From Pedobacter sp. BS3 (lineage in GTDB: Bacteria > Bacteroidota > Bacteroidia > Sphingobacteriales > Sphingobacteriaceae), in contig NZ_VTRT01000002.1 in the NCBI RefSeq assembly GCF_008274585.1, forward strand, positions 620,001-684,000: 64,000 nt of DNA, written 5' to 3'. The notes under the pieces are model-generated. The model was given only the letters and a program-made list of their open reading frames with translations. It had not been told where the DNA came from and made no database searches. Below, piece after piece: positions 52,067 to 57,192 of the stretch (within the stretch, counting starts at the first letter, position 1; each line of letters opens with the position of its first letter). The position numbers were made by a program, and so were the translations under genes.

Positions 52067-54652
52067 TTATTTATCCAGTTCGTCCAAAAACTGTTCCAAT
52101 GCGTATTCATCAGGAATAAGTACATCACGGGCTTTACTACCCTCAAACGGGCCAACTACTCCTGCGGCTTCCAGTTGATCTATGATCCGGCCGGCACGGT
52201 TGTAACCCAGCTTCAGCTTACGCTGGATCAACGAGGTTGAGCCCTGCTGGTGCATAACGATCAGGCGGGCCGCATCTTCAAATAATGGATCGCGGTCTGC
52301 CGGATCAAAATCCTTAATGCTACCTCCTTCTCCGTCTTCATCCACATATTCAGGCAACAGGTATGCATCAGCGTATCCCCGCTGACTACCAATGTATTCC
52401 GAAATACGATCAACCTCTGGTGTATCCACAAAGGCGCATTGCAGGCGAATCAGATCACTTCCGGTAGCAAGCAGCATATCTCCGCGACCGATCAGCTGGT
52501 CTGCCCCGCCGCTGTCCAGGATTGTCCGGGAATCTATCTTAGACAACACCCTGAACGCCAACCGGGCCGGGAAGTTAGCCTTAATAGTACCCGTAATAAT
52601 ATTTACCGAAGGACGCTGCGTAGCCAGCACCAGGTGGATGCCAATGGCCCGTGCCAGTTGCGCCAGACGGGCAATAGGCGATTCTACTTCCTTCCCTGCT
52701 GTCATCATCAGATCGGCAAATTCATCAATTATCAGCACAATAAACGGCAAGAAGCGGTGTCCGTTATTCGGGTTCAGCTTTCGCTTGATGAATTTAGCGT
52801 TATACTCTTTCAGGTTACGCACCTGCGCATCCTTAAGCAGATCGTACCGCTGATCCATCTCAATGCACAGCGAATTAAGCGTATGGATAACCTTTTTGGT
52901 ATCGGTTATAATAGCATCCGCTTCGCCGGGCAGCTTCGCCAGGAAATGCCGCTCGATCTTGTTAAACAGCGTAAGCTCAACCTTTTTCGGGTCAACCAGT
53001 ACAAATTTCAGCTGCGCCGGGTGCAGCTTGTACAGCAGCGATACCAGAATAGAATTGATACCCACCGATTTACCCTGCCCGGTTGCCCCCGCCACAAGCA
53101 GGTGCGGCATTTTAGCCAGATCAGCAATGTACACTTCGTTCGAAATGGTTCTACCCAATGCAATCGGCAGATCCATGGTGGTATTCTGGAATTTTTCTGT
53201 TGCCAGCACCGTACGCATGGCCACCATTTCGGGATGCTTGTTGGGCACTTCTATACCAATGGTACCTTTTCCGGGCATAGGCGCAATAATGCGGATGCCT
53301 AAGGCAGCCAGGCTAAGGGCAATATCGTCTTCCAGGTTTTTTATTTTGGAGATACGCACACCCGGCGCCGGGATGATCTCATACAAGGTTACGGTTGGCC
53401 CAATGGTTGCCTTGATCTTGTCAATCTCGATATTGTAGTTATTCAGCGTTTCTACAATTTTGTTTTTATTGGCTTCAAGCTCCTCCGCATCGACGGTAAT
53501 TTTTTTGGCGCCATAGTTTTCCAGCAGATCCAGGGGCGGCATTTTATAGTCTGACAGATCCAGCTTCGGATCGTATTCGCCGAACTGCTCTACCAGGGTT
53601 TCGGCAGTTTTTTCCTCCTCGTTCTTTTCAACCGTTAATTGAGGTTCGGCCTTTTCTTCAATCTCATCCTCAACGGGATGCTCTATTTCCAATACCTGCG
53701 GAACTCCTACCGGTTCGGCAGGTTTGATCACATTTTCGGCTATAGTTTCTGTTTCCAGCAAAACGCTCCGGGATGGCAATACAGACTCAACCTCGTCATT
53801 TGCTAACGACACCGGCGGAGCAATACGCTCCTGCTGTAGCTGGTTTGCTGCATCGCGGGTTACGCCCCGGTTGGGTAAAGGAAACTCAACAGGCTCTGAG
53901 CGATGCTCTGCTTCCATCTCCATATTTTCAGGCTCCTCTGGCAAATCCGGCAAAGCGATTTTCTTTTTCCTTTCAGGAAGCTTAAAATCAATGTTATAGG
54001 CAATGATCAGCGCCGTTAATCCGGCAAACACAATTAATCCGGCAACACCGGCATTACCTATCTGCGCCTGTAGCAGCTCGTTATTCCAGTAACCGAACTC
54101 CCCTTCCAGGTAATGCGGATATCCGCTAAAAAACGAATGAAAATAAGCCAGGGAAACAGAAATATAAATAAGCAGGAAGAACGAATAGCCCAGGGTCTTC
54201 ACGGTTGAAAATAGCCGCACCTTAAACAGCATGCGGTAACCGATAATGAAGAATACGCCTACAAATATAAAGGAGGCAATGCCAAACCACTCAAAAATGA
54301 ACTGATGCGACAACAGGGCCCCGAATTTGCCAAGCCAGTTTTGCACTACCGGATTCTTAATACCTTTGTCAAGCAGCTCTTCGCGGGTTTTAAACAAGTT
54401 GCTCCAGCCGCCGTTGCTATCCAGCACATAACTCTGGTCATCCTGCCAGGTAAACAGGTACGAGGTAAAAGCCACCAAAAAATACAAGGAAACAATAAGG
54501 AAAAACAAACCGATTACCTTGACCAGACGGCCGTCGTTAAAATTAAACCGGGGCATAATTTCCGCTTTTTCCTTCTCCCGCTCCCTGGTTTTCCTAACCT
54601 GAGGCTCCTCGCGAAAAGAGTTTGATCTGAATTTATTTTCTCTTACAGGCAT
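52067..54652 (-). CDS. ftsK: DNA translocase FtsK
   Basis: This 861-aa protein has four N-terminal membrane helices (about 30-200), a linker rich in Glu/Pro, the FtsK alpha/beta motor (Walker A GATGQGKSVG; VLIIDEFADLM as Walker B; LATQRPSVNIITG) and a C-terminal gamma winged helix (QGSTSLIQRKLKLGYNRAGRI) that reads KOPS-like sites. It pumps chromosome termini through the septum and activates XerCD. ATG at 54650-54652 is preferred to a GTG at 54679, because a -7 element overlaps the latter. The linker is short for the family. Confidence 0.95.
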   Translation of the reverse strand: MPVRENKFRSNSFREEPQVRKTREREKEKAEIMPRFNFNDGRLVKVIGLFFLIVSLYFLVAFTSYLFTWQDDQSYVLDSNGGWSNLFKTREELLDKGIKNPVVQNWLGKFGALLSHQFIFEWFGIASFIFVGVFFIIGYRMLFKVRLFSTVKTLGYSFFLLIYISVSLAYFHSFFSGYPHYLEGEFGYWNNELLQAQIGNAGVAGLIVFAGLTALIIAYNIDFKLPERKKKIALPDLPEEPENMEMEAEHRSEPVEFPLPNRGVTRDAANQLQQERIAPPVSLANDEVESVLPSRSVLLETETIAENVIKPAEPVGVPQVLEIEHPVEDEIEEKAEPQLTVEKNEEEKTAETLVEQFGEYDPKLDLSDYKMPPLDLLENYGAKKITVDAEELEANKNKIVETLNNYNIEIDKIKATIGPTVTLYEIIPAPGVRISKIKNLEDDIALSLAALGIRIIAPMPGKGTIGIEVPNKHPEMVAMRTVLATEKFQNTTMDLPIALGRTISNEVYIADLAKMPHLLVAGATGQGKSVGINSILVSLLYKLHPAQLKFVLVDPKKVELTLFNKIERHFLAKLPGEADAIITDTKKVIHTLNSLCIEMDQRYDLLKDAQVRNLKEYNAKFIKRKLNPNNGHRFLPFIVLIIDEFADLMMTAGKEVESPIARLAQLARAIGIHLVLATQRPSVNIITGTIKANFPARLAFRVLSKIDSRTILDSGGADQLIGRGDMLLATGSDLIRLQCAFVDTPEVDRISEYIGSQRGYADAYLLPEYVDEDGEGGSIKDFDPADRDPLFEDAARLIVMHQQGSTSLIQRKLKLGYNRAGRIIDQLEAAGVVGPFEGSKARDVLIPDEYALEQFLDELDK

Positions 54653-54676
54653 CGTATAAACAACGGCTTTATCCCA

Positions 54677-54684
54677 CAAATATA
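54677..54684 (-). promoter_or_regulatory. Predicted -7 element (TATATTTG) of ftsK
   Basis: TATATTTG on the minus strand lies 24 bp before the ATG at 54652 and rules out the longer GTG start. Confidence 0.55.
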
Positions 54685-54728
54685 AACGTTGTGTGCAATT
54701 TGGAATGACACTATCACAAGTATTTTAG

Positions 54729-54736
54729 TAAATTTG
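54729..54736 (+). promoter_or_regulatory. Predicted -7 element (TAAATTTG) of the A+T-rich island operon
   Basis: TAAATTTG ends 18 bp before the ATG at 54755. It is divergent from the ftsK promoter, 45 bp away. Confidence 0.5.
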
Positions 54737-54754
54737 AGAAGAATCTGTTTAAGA

Positions 54755-55229
54755 ATGACGGAAAAAAAGCTAAGATATAAACAATACTTAGAGAAATTTC
54801 CGAACTGCCCATCTGATAACTTTAAAGCAATTGAAAGAAGCATTCCGGTGGACTCATAGCCCCATGATACCAAACGACTTTAAGCCTATCAATCTTATAA
54901 ATGAGCCTCCAGCAAGAATGTTGGAAGACACTGACAAAATATGTATGGGTTATGGTTTATCAATGTTTGACACGCTTAATAATTCTGTAAAAAAATATAG
55001 GAAATTATATAATAATTTAAGATCTTATCAAAAGGAGCAGTTTAAACAAGATAAAGGGAGCTATGTCACCTGCTTGAACTTATTGGCAACTGATGGCGTT
55101 GCCGATAGCCCAAATGAATCTAATTTCGGCCATTTTACATTTCATGAATATTCAGAAACTAACTTAGAAAGTAAGGTATTAAAATTATTTAGTATTTTCA
55201 ATGAAAATGGAGAATTTAATCTACAATAG
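54755..55229 (+). pseudogene. Unknown protein, frame broken near 54820-54840
   Basis: From ATG 54755 a frame reads MTEKKLRYKQYLEKFPNC...AIERS and stops at 54859. From about 54831 the +1 frame continues as AFRWTHSPMIPNDFKPINL and runs to 55229. Joined by one base change, they give one protein of about 157 aa with a consistent composition, which suggests a single-base indel in an older gene. A sequencing error or a deliberate frameshift is possible. I recognise no family. It overlaps the next gene by 29 bp. Confidence 0.55.
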
Positions 55230-55902
55230 CAACGACAAATTACATACCCACAACTTAGTTAAAGTTGGTGATCTGTCATTTTATGAAGGTCCTCTTTTGA
55301 GTTTATTTGAGGAATTAAATACAGGTCATTTCTATCTTTTCGATTGGGTTGACCGTGACATGAAGTCAAATAGATGGATGATTTATAGAGTTGCGCCCAG
55401 ACAATTATTAGAGTATATAAACGGTAACATATCACACCTGGAACTTTTCAACAACAGGCCGAATAATAGTACGTATTTTACTGATATAGACCATCAAAAC
55501 AAACCATTCTTTCAATATAATGCTTGTGCATTAAAAATAATCCCCGACAACTACCTTCCGAACGATGAGAATTTTTTTGATCTATCAAACTGTGGTTCAT
55601 TAGAGAAGATCAAATCAGTAATTATCACGTCTCTATCAAGACAAAAATCAGAAAATGAATATTCTAAACTTTTCAAAATTCAAATACACAAACCACACTA
55701 TGATCAAATAACCTGCTGTAATAGAATAGACCGAAGCACATGGATTACAAGAAAAATATACAGCAATCAAAGTGTGAATGTAAAAAATCAGAATAATTTA
55801 AGTTATTTGAATAATAATATAGAATATTCAGGGATCAGAACTTTAAGCAGTAAAAGATTGAAGATAAAAAAAGGAATAGAGTATGCAAATCAATATAGTT
55901 AA
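55201..55902 (+). CDS. Unknown protein of the A+T-rich island (DUF6575-like)
   Basis: This 233-aa soluble protein starts MKMENLIYNSN and has YEGPLLSLFEELNTGHFYLFDWVDRDMKSNRWMIYRVAPRQLLEYI (described here in parts), a layout like DUF6575, a poorly characterised bacterial family. The second half is helical, with DITCCN-like and WITRKIYSN segments. No catalytic motif is evident. It overlaps both neighbours (29 and 20 bp), so all three are one operon. This is the only one of the three that is intact. Confidence 0.6.
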   Translation: MKMENLIYNSNDKLHTHNLVKVGDLSFYEGPLLSLFEELNTGHFYLFDWVDRDMKSNRWMIYRVAPRQLLEYINGNISHLELFNNRPNNSTYFTDIDHQNKPFFQYNACALKIIPDNYLPNDENFFDLSNCGSLEKIKSVIITSLSRQKSENEYSKLFKIQIHKPHYDQITCCNRIDRSTWITRKIYSNQSVNVKNQNNLSYLNNNIEYSGIRTLSSKRLKIKKGIEYANQYS

Positions 55903-56334
55903 AGAATTTCTAAAAAGTCAGAACTGGCAGTTCACCCAAGTTGAAAAGAAAATATTTTTCTTTTTGGCATAGCGGGTACAAATGGTAGTTTTCAATGTTT
56001 TGCAGATCTAAATGAAGATGAGAGCCAATTTATATTCTCATCTATTTGTGGCGCTAATACACCGGCAGAAAAGAAAAGAAAAATGCTTGAACTTTTAAAC
56101 GCTATTAACTACAAGCTGTTTTTCGGAAATTTTGAAATGAATTGGGAAGACGGTGAAATCAGGTTCAGGACAAGTATCTCCTATAAGAATCTGAATATTA
56201 ATATAAACTTTATTGAGGAGTTAATAATGACGAACATTATAACAATGGACAAAAGTTTGCCATCTATCATGGAACGTATGTTCGGTGATATAAGTATAGA
56301 AAAAGCTATTGAGCATGCTACTAAAGAAGAATAA
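55883..56334 (+). pseudogene. YbjN-like (type III chaperone-fold) protein, frame broken near 55955
   Basis: ATG 55883 reads MQINIVKEFLKSQNWQFTQVEKKIFFF, then reaches a stop at 55970. The -1 frame continues as GIAGTNGSFQCFADLNEDE... and NINFIEELIMTNIITMDKSLPSIMERM to 56334. Together they match the YbjN domain, a fold related to type III secretion chaperones. The break lies in a T-rich tract (about 55949-55961), a typical indel site. The last part could also start at ATG 56083. The fold suggests a binding or chaperone role for the partners. Confidence 0.6.
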
Positions 56335-56461
56335 GCTCTCTGAAAATGAAAATAAGCAATAAAGGCAAAGAGATAAAAAATTTATTTACCCCATTAAACC
56401 TTTTATCCATACTTGCATCAAATAAGCAAGTTTATTAAAATTAGTTTAGTTTATTTTGGTT

Positions 56462-56492
56462 AAACTCCCATTCTCCCCGGATGGGAGTTTTT
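56462..56492 (+). terminator. Rho-independent terminator after the island operon
   Basis: Arms AAACTCCCAT and ATGGGAGTTT with a loop of 9 nt are followed by a T run. A weaker hairpin (ACTTGC/GCAAGT) lies at 56413-56433. Confidence 0.85.
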
Positions 56493-56541: not shown

Positions 56542-57192
56542 ATGGACAGCGATTTATTGGAAGAATATATACAAAACGGCGATACCGTTGCAGTATCAGA
56601 CCTTCTGAACAAAAACCCGGAACTGGCTACATGCAAAACCAGCCTGAATGTTTCTCCGCTGATGCTGGCTTGCTACTACAAAAAACCGGCAATTATTAAG
56701 CTCATACTCGATTATGTTAAAGATCCCGACCTCTACGAAGCCTGCGCCTCGGGAAAATTCGACGTGGTAGCCAACGTAATTTACCAGCAGCCTGAGCTTA
56801 TTAATACGCATTCTGCCGATGGTTTTACTCCGCTGGGGCTTGCCGCTTATTTTGAGCATGAGGAGATTGCCCGATACCTGCTGCTAAAAGGCGCCGAAGT
56901 TAACCTTCCTTCAGATAATGGCTTTAACGTTTTCCCGATCCATTCTGCCGTTGCGGCCAATAATGCCGACATTACCAAAATACTGATAGAAGCCGGTGCA
57001 GAAGTAAATGTGATGCAGAAATCGGGCATTACACCGCTCCACTCGGCGGCTGCAAATGGCAATATTGATATCCTGGTATTGCTGCTGGAAGCCGGCGCAC
57101 AGGTAAATACCCGCATGGAAGGCGGAAAAACACCCGCAGATATGGCCGCAGAAAAAGGGTTCAACGATATTGCACAAATTCTGGCCGATTGA
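56542..57192 (+). CDS. Ankyrin-repeat protein
   Basis: This 216-aa protein is made of about five ankyrin repeats. LNVSPLMLACYYKKPAIIKLIL, GFTPLGLAAYFEHEEIARYLLLKGA, NVFPIHSAVAANNADITKILIEAGA and GITPLHSAAANGNIDILVLLLEAGA follow the G-x-TPLHxAAxxGxxxxVxxLLxxGA pattern. ATG at 56542 is chosen because a longer start would sit in the terminator. Bacterial ankyrin proteins act as binding modules, often periplasmic, but no signal peptide is seen, so it is likely cytoplasmic. The partner is unknown. Confidence 0.88.
   Translation: MDSDLLEEYIQNGDTVAVSDLLNKNPELATCKTSLNVSPLMLACYYKKPAIIKLILDYVKDPDLYEACASGKFDVVANVIYQQPELINTHSADGFTPLGLAAYFEHEEIARYLLLKGAEVNLPSDNGFNVFPIHSAVAANNADITKILIEAGAEVNVMQKSGITPLHSAAANGNIDILVLLLEAGAQVNTRMEGGKTPADMAAEKGFNDIAQILAD

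Follow-up and report, generated by a model that had tools for sequence, protein, structure and literature searches.

Three overlapping genes of Pedobacter sp. BS3, here called A, B and Y, form an A+T-rich island that we regard, with slightly better than even confidence, as a decayed copy of a three-gene variant of the PD-T4-10 system in which Y encodes a predicted chaperone. Profile matches strongly indicate that A and B belong to the PD-T4-10 family. That Y would serve as a dedicated chaperone is tentative and somewhat short of an even chance; it is suggested by the fold and the gene position, with the CmdT-type locus L082 as the main support. The three-gene variant is new, and its YbjN-family third gene is undescribed. 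PD-T4-10 was found in Escherichia coli by functional selection and consists there of two genes, of which B is toxic and A neutralises B; A proved impossible to delete, and together the two genes abort infection by T-even phages (PMC9519451). No trigger or biochemical mechanism of PD-T4-10 is described in the papers searched.

The window, that is the whole 64-kb stretch of DNA analysed, carries the three genes on the plus strand at positions 54755-56334, flanked by ftsK and an ankyrin gene (Table 1). This layout and the deviant base composition, both proposed in the initial annotation, are borne out by the reading frames and by a GC content of 0.316 in the island against 0.435 in the window; the lowest value elsewhere in the window, for stretches of 1,580 nt, is 0.382. 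The island is missing from a genome of the same genus (G001) and from one other member of the family (G006), where ftsK adjoins the ankyrin gene, and alignment of the joined flanks to these empty sites gave the approximate extent of the insertion. No transposon terminal repeats were found at the ends of the island. A search of 99 other genomes related to the strain detected no relative of the window B, which fits horizontal gain, and horizontal acquisition is the best explanation of the A+T-rich island. The terminator that had been attributed to the island itself belongs to the host locus, since G001, at its empty site, has an equivalent of the stem-loop just 3' of the island. Scans of the island for sigma-70 and Bacteroidota-type promoters gave matches at chance level.

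Table 1. Features of the island, its neighbours and related short-B loci.
Feature	Position	Strand	Remarks
ftsK	52067-54679	-	Neighbour of the island
Inserted stretch	54690-56385	none	Approximate boundaries
Gene A, PD-T4-10_A (antitoxin family) homologue	54755-55229	+	PADLOC PDLC04023; frame broken
Gene B, short PD-T4-10_B / DUF6575	55207-55902	+	ATG 55201 or 55207; frame open
Gene Y, YbjN family	55883-56334	+	Pfam PF10722; frame broken around 55945-55968
Terminator-like stem-loop with T-run	56462-56490	+	Just 3' of the island; host locus
Ankyrin gene	56542-57192		Other neighbour of the island
A+B, Y absent	L062, L063		
A+B then small gene, Y absent	L064		
A then two tandem short B copies, Y absent	L066:5211-6524	+	
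B, no A visible	L067, L068		
A + short B + 544-aa ParA/AAA_31 + TPR protein	L017:6119-8723	-	L017 and L023 are the same contig

Gene A, left unrecognised by the initial annotation, is a homologue of PD-T4-10_A: the part following its frame break matches the PADLOC profile with an E-value of 7.1e-18, and the A proteins of intact relatives match it with 4e-22 and 2e-24. B matches the PD-T4-10_B profile PDLC04024 (E 2.8e-21) through residues 13-131, which correspond to profile positions 11-125 of 353. Its frame overlaps A at one end and Y at the other. An A-family protein is encoded first and a B-family protein second, in overlap with A, as in PD-T4-10. The match is confined to the first third of the known toxin: the N-terminal domain is kept, and the C-terminal two thirds of a full-length B are missing from the window. 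The earlier description of B as DUF6575-like holds (E 1.3e-5), though with 25.2 bits the protein falls just below the Pfam cut-off of 26.6 for PF20215; its relative in L017, at 33.8 bits, exceeds this threshold, and the link to DUF6575 thus runs through a chain of homologues. We rejected the possibility that B is a truncated gene because intact short-B homologues have a similar length. The short form comprises about 231 aa in the window and 174-233 aa in the other triads, with intact examples of 182 aa (L023), 231 aa (L024) and about 230 aa (L060) and several other short ones, whereas long B proteins of 372-437 aa are encoded in L004-L007 and L010. The tail of B shows little conservation and is modelled poorly. 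As for the last gene, its assignment to YbjN was correct: the second part of Y scores 33.8 bits (E 4.7e-8) against a Pfam cut-off of 22, and the intact Y of L024 reaches 44.0 bits.

Homologues of these genes, rather than being scattered singly, do occur elsewhere as the same triad. Intact copies are present in L024, from a metagenome genome labelled Haliscomenobacter, where the order and overlaps of A, B and YbjN are as in the window, and in L060, from a different genome; L085 is a divergent triad. The window B used as a lone query of genome contigs gave no match, and an alignment of two sequences used as query led to L024. The window proteins are 58% (A), 48% (B) and 64% (Y) identical to those of L024. 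The surroundings of the intact triads differ from those of the island, yet the frame overlap is the same in the window, L024 and L060, the conserved YANQY at the end of B being an out-of-frame reading of the MQINI with which the YbjN protein begins. In L085 the YbjN gene also overlaps the end of B. A and B of this locus match those of L006 (E 4e-19 and 2e-13); its A has no match to the main A profile and is linked to the others only through L006. Phylogenetic analysis of the B domain separates the window, L024 and L060 from all other sequences (100%) and groups L085, away from these three, with the long B of L006 (99%). These positions suggest either two origins of the association of B with YbjN or an old association with frequent losses.

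Differences between the window and L024 are concentrated at third codon positions. After the breaks, these differ at 0.65 in A and 0.51 in Y, as compared with 0.22 and 0.15-0.22 at first and second positions; for the N-terminal part of B the values are 0.63 and 0.24-0.30, and its tail shows hardly any constraint. This indicates purifying selection on A, B and Y. Close YbjN relatives are confined to the triads among 150 genomes of the family of L024, other YbjN genes being far weaker matches.

The short B itself has varied partners (Table 1). Its profile matched in 8 of the 150 genomes of the L024 family and in three of 178 genomes of the class to which the window belongs, the genome of the window included; the search of these 178 revealed no further triad, and most short-B loci were found without a YbjN gene. 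The 544-aa ParA/AAA_31-TPR protein of L017 matches the PADLOC candidate PDC-M28B and has a start/stop overlap with the preceding gene. In L061 (4757-6933, minus strand), a short B is followed by a 520-aa AAA ATPase matching IetA, and no A was seen. Among viral contigs, phages and plasmids, relatives of A and B were limited to one weak match in a Bacteroides plasmid, and no close relative of Y was found. A Bacteroides finegoldii plasmid (L016:3565-8665, plus strand) carries weak A and B relatives, the identities of which are backed by profile comparison, together with a 146-aa protein matching PDC-M64C (2e-6), directly 5' of drt3a and drt3b. The third gene of this locus has a by-eye likeness to SecB-like proteins for which profile comparison was not significant, and we do not claim it as such.

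A possible function of Y is suggested by loci of the CmdTAC type. In L082 (3366-4689, plus strand), a CmdT homologue (PD-T4-9_A, 2e-25) and a CmdA-like gene are followed by a YbjN gene, in the place where L092, L094 and L095 encode the SecB-like PD-T4-9_C. This arrangement was seen once, and L082 is possibly a CmdTAC variant with YbjN instead of the SecB-like chaperone. The YbjN and SecB-like sets have no profile similarity, so this would be replacement rather than descent. Two other arrangements were observed. L093 (3467-4006, minus strand) has a CmdT homologue and then a short CmdA-like gene of 72 aa, with no adjoining chaperone gene seen, and in L080, L081, L083 and L084, from the L024 family, a YbjN gene, perhaps a housekeeping one, lies just 3' of a similar gene of about 310-350 aa. 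YbjN together with a toxin-antitoxin-chaperone system appeared in no paper of our literature search, which covered a minority of subscription papers. AlphaFold2 models, each computed from only three sequences, had a mean pLDDT of 43 for A and 47 for B, and a fold search with the low-confidence L024 B model gave no significant match; the chains listed were almost exclusively protein kinases, a uniform set in which every E-value was at least 1.

In CmdTAC, the antitoxin is protected by the chaperone until a phage capsid protein competes the chaperone away (PMC11618068). By analogy, the three-gene variant could work as follows. A would neutralise B, as in the E. coli PD-T4-10. Y, as a small peptide-binding chaperone, would hold its likely client, either A itself or the weakly conserved B tail, in a safe complex. 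A phage protein competing for Y would then release the toxic activity and abort the infection, as with the SecB-like chaperone of CmdTAC. Several observations temper this reading. Relative to the known toxin, the short B lacks the C-terminal two thirds, and its toxicity is putative. It also occurs where A (L067, L068) or Y (L062-L064, L066) is missing, which makes a requirement for Y putative as well. The A of L085 is connected to the family by way of L006, and the chaperone role of Y is deduced from fold and position, with a single CmdT-YbjN case. More broadly, toxin-antitoxin phage defence might use a second kind of chaperone, YbjN, that is independent of SecB. It would have joined PD-T4-10-type pairs at least twice (window/L024/L060; L085) and a CmdT-type pair once (L082), which would make the phage-sensing chaperone an exchangeable module shared by unrelated toxins. 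We hold this generalisation to be rather less likely than its opposite.

Other roles of Y have to be considered. A and B might make up the system, with Y acting as an effector, a second antitoxin or a regulator and not as a chaperone. We judge this unlikely though worth serious attention: among the three proteins, Y shows the highest conservation between the window and L024, and with most of the known toxin lacking from the short B, the activity might reside in Y. However, YbjN proteins are thought to be non-enzymatic and to act by protein-protein contacts (PMC5398634), and in L082 a YbjN gene occupies the chaperone position of a CmdT-type locus. That Y is an unrelated neighbour, placed beside a PD-T4-10 pair by chance, would agree with the majority of short-B loci having no YbjN gene and with the three closest triads forming one clade; it is improbable given that the frame overlap is identical in three copies with different surroundings, that a second lineage (L085) exists and that close YbjN relatives were found nowhere outside triads. 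Even less credible is the derivation of Y from a split-off C-terminal half of the long toxin. The long B proteins are without Y and the triads have short ones, but the YbjN set shows no profile similarity to the long B, and several short-B loci are without Y.

Whether the copy in the window is functional is a separate question. The predicted frame breaks in the first and last genes are real features of the assembled sequence: A starts at 54755 and is broken within 54815-54845, with a premature stop at 54857-54859, and Y is broken once, near its start. With A and Y broken and B open, this copy is most likely non-working. Either B is harmless alone, or the operon is not expressed, or a truncated A is enough; re-initiation at an ATG at 54864, which lies just past the premature stop and in frame with the second part of A, could produce such a protein. 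The breaks could instead be sequencing or assembly errors, the system being intact and working in Pedobacter sp. BS3. This would accord with purifying selection on all three genes up to the present and with the breaks being only two and small, the second adjoining two runs of five T. We nevertheless find it unlikely, as the two breaks fall within 1.6 kb, ftsK, the ankyrin gene and two other neighbours align unbroken to relatives, long frames occupy the rest of the window and no base run longer than five is present at the breaks. A switch by indels, an idea put forward in the initial annotation, would accord with two genes being broken by small indels with the flanking frames preserved. It was not upheld, and phase variation is the least plausible of the explanations considered: neither break has a repeat tract (the longest base runs are three at the first and five at the second) and both sites have an open frame in the intact L024. 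The accompanying proposal of a decaying mobile defence or toxin-immunity cassette is, on the other hand, well supported by the PD-T4-10 homology, the empty sites and the intact triads elsewhere.

If correct, the predicted chaperone role of Y would extend the toxin-antitoxin-chaperone idea beyond SecB. It would also give a concrete function to YbjN, the role of which is poorly known. A chaperone-like third gene that is conserved among natural variants suggests that phages are sensed through competition for the chaperone, and L024 and L060 offer small intact operons suited to testing this.

Comparison with known systems places the island closest to PD-T4-10, with homologous A and B, identical gene order and overlapping frames (PMC9519451); it differs in that B is short, an N-terminal DUF6575 domain with a short tail, in the YbjN third gene and in being a broken copy. 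CmdTAC/PD-T4-9 and other toxin-antitoxin-chaperone (TAC) systems share with it a three-gene operon in which a chaperone-fold protein comes last (PMC11618068). Their toxin and antitoxin families are, however, unrelated to those of the window, and where they encode a SecB-like chaperone with the pair, the window has a YbjN protein unlike SecB-like proteins in sequence and an A that does not end in the C-terminal AA degron motif. Chaperone exchange that includes the YbjN superfamily has been noted in operons of ADP-ribosylation conflicts (PMC9503650). These TY-chaperones (type III secretion/YbjN superfamily) resemble Y in being YbjN-superfamily proteins exchangeable in predicted immune operons, but the operons concerned are centred on ADP-ribosylglycohydrolases rather than on a toxin-antitoxin pair (PMC9503650).
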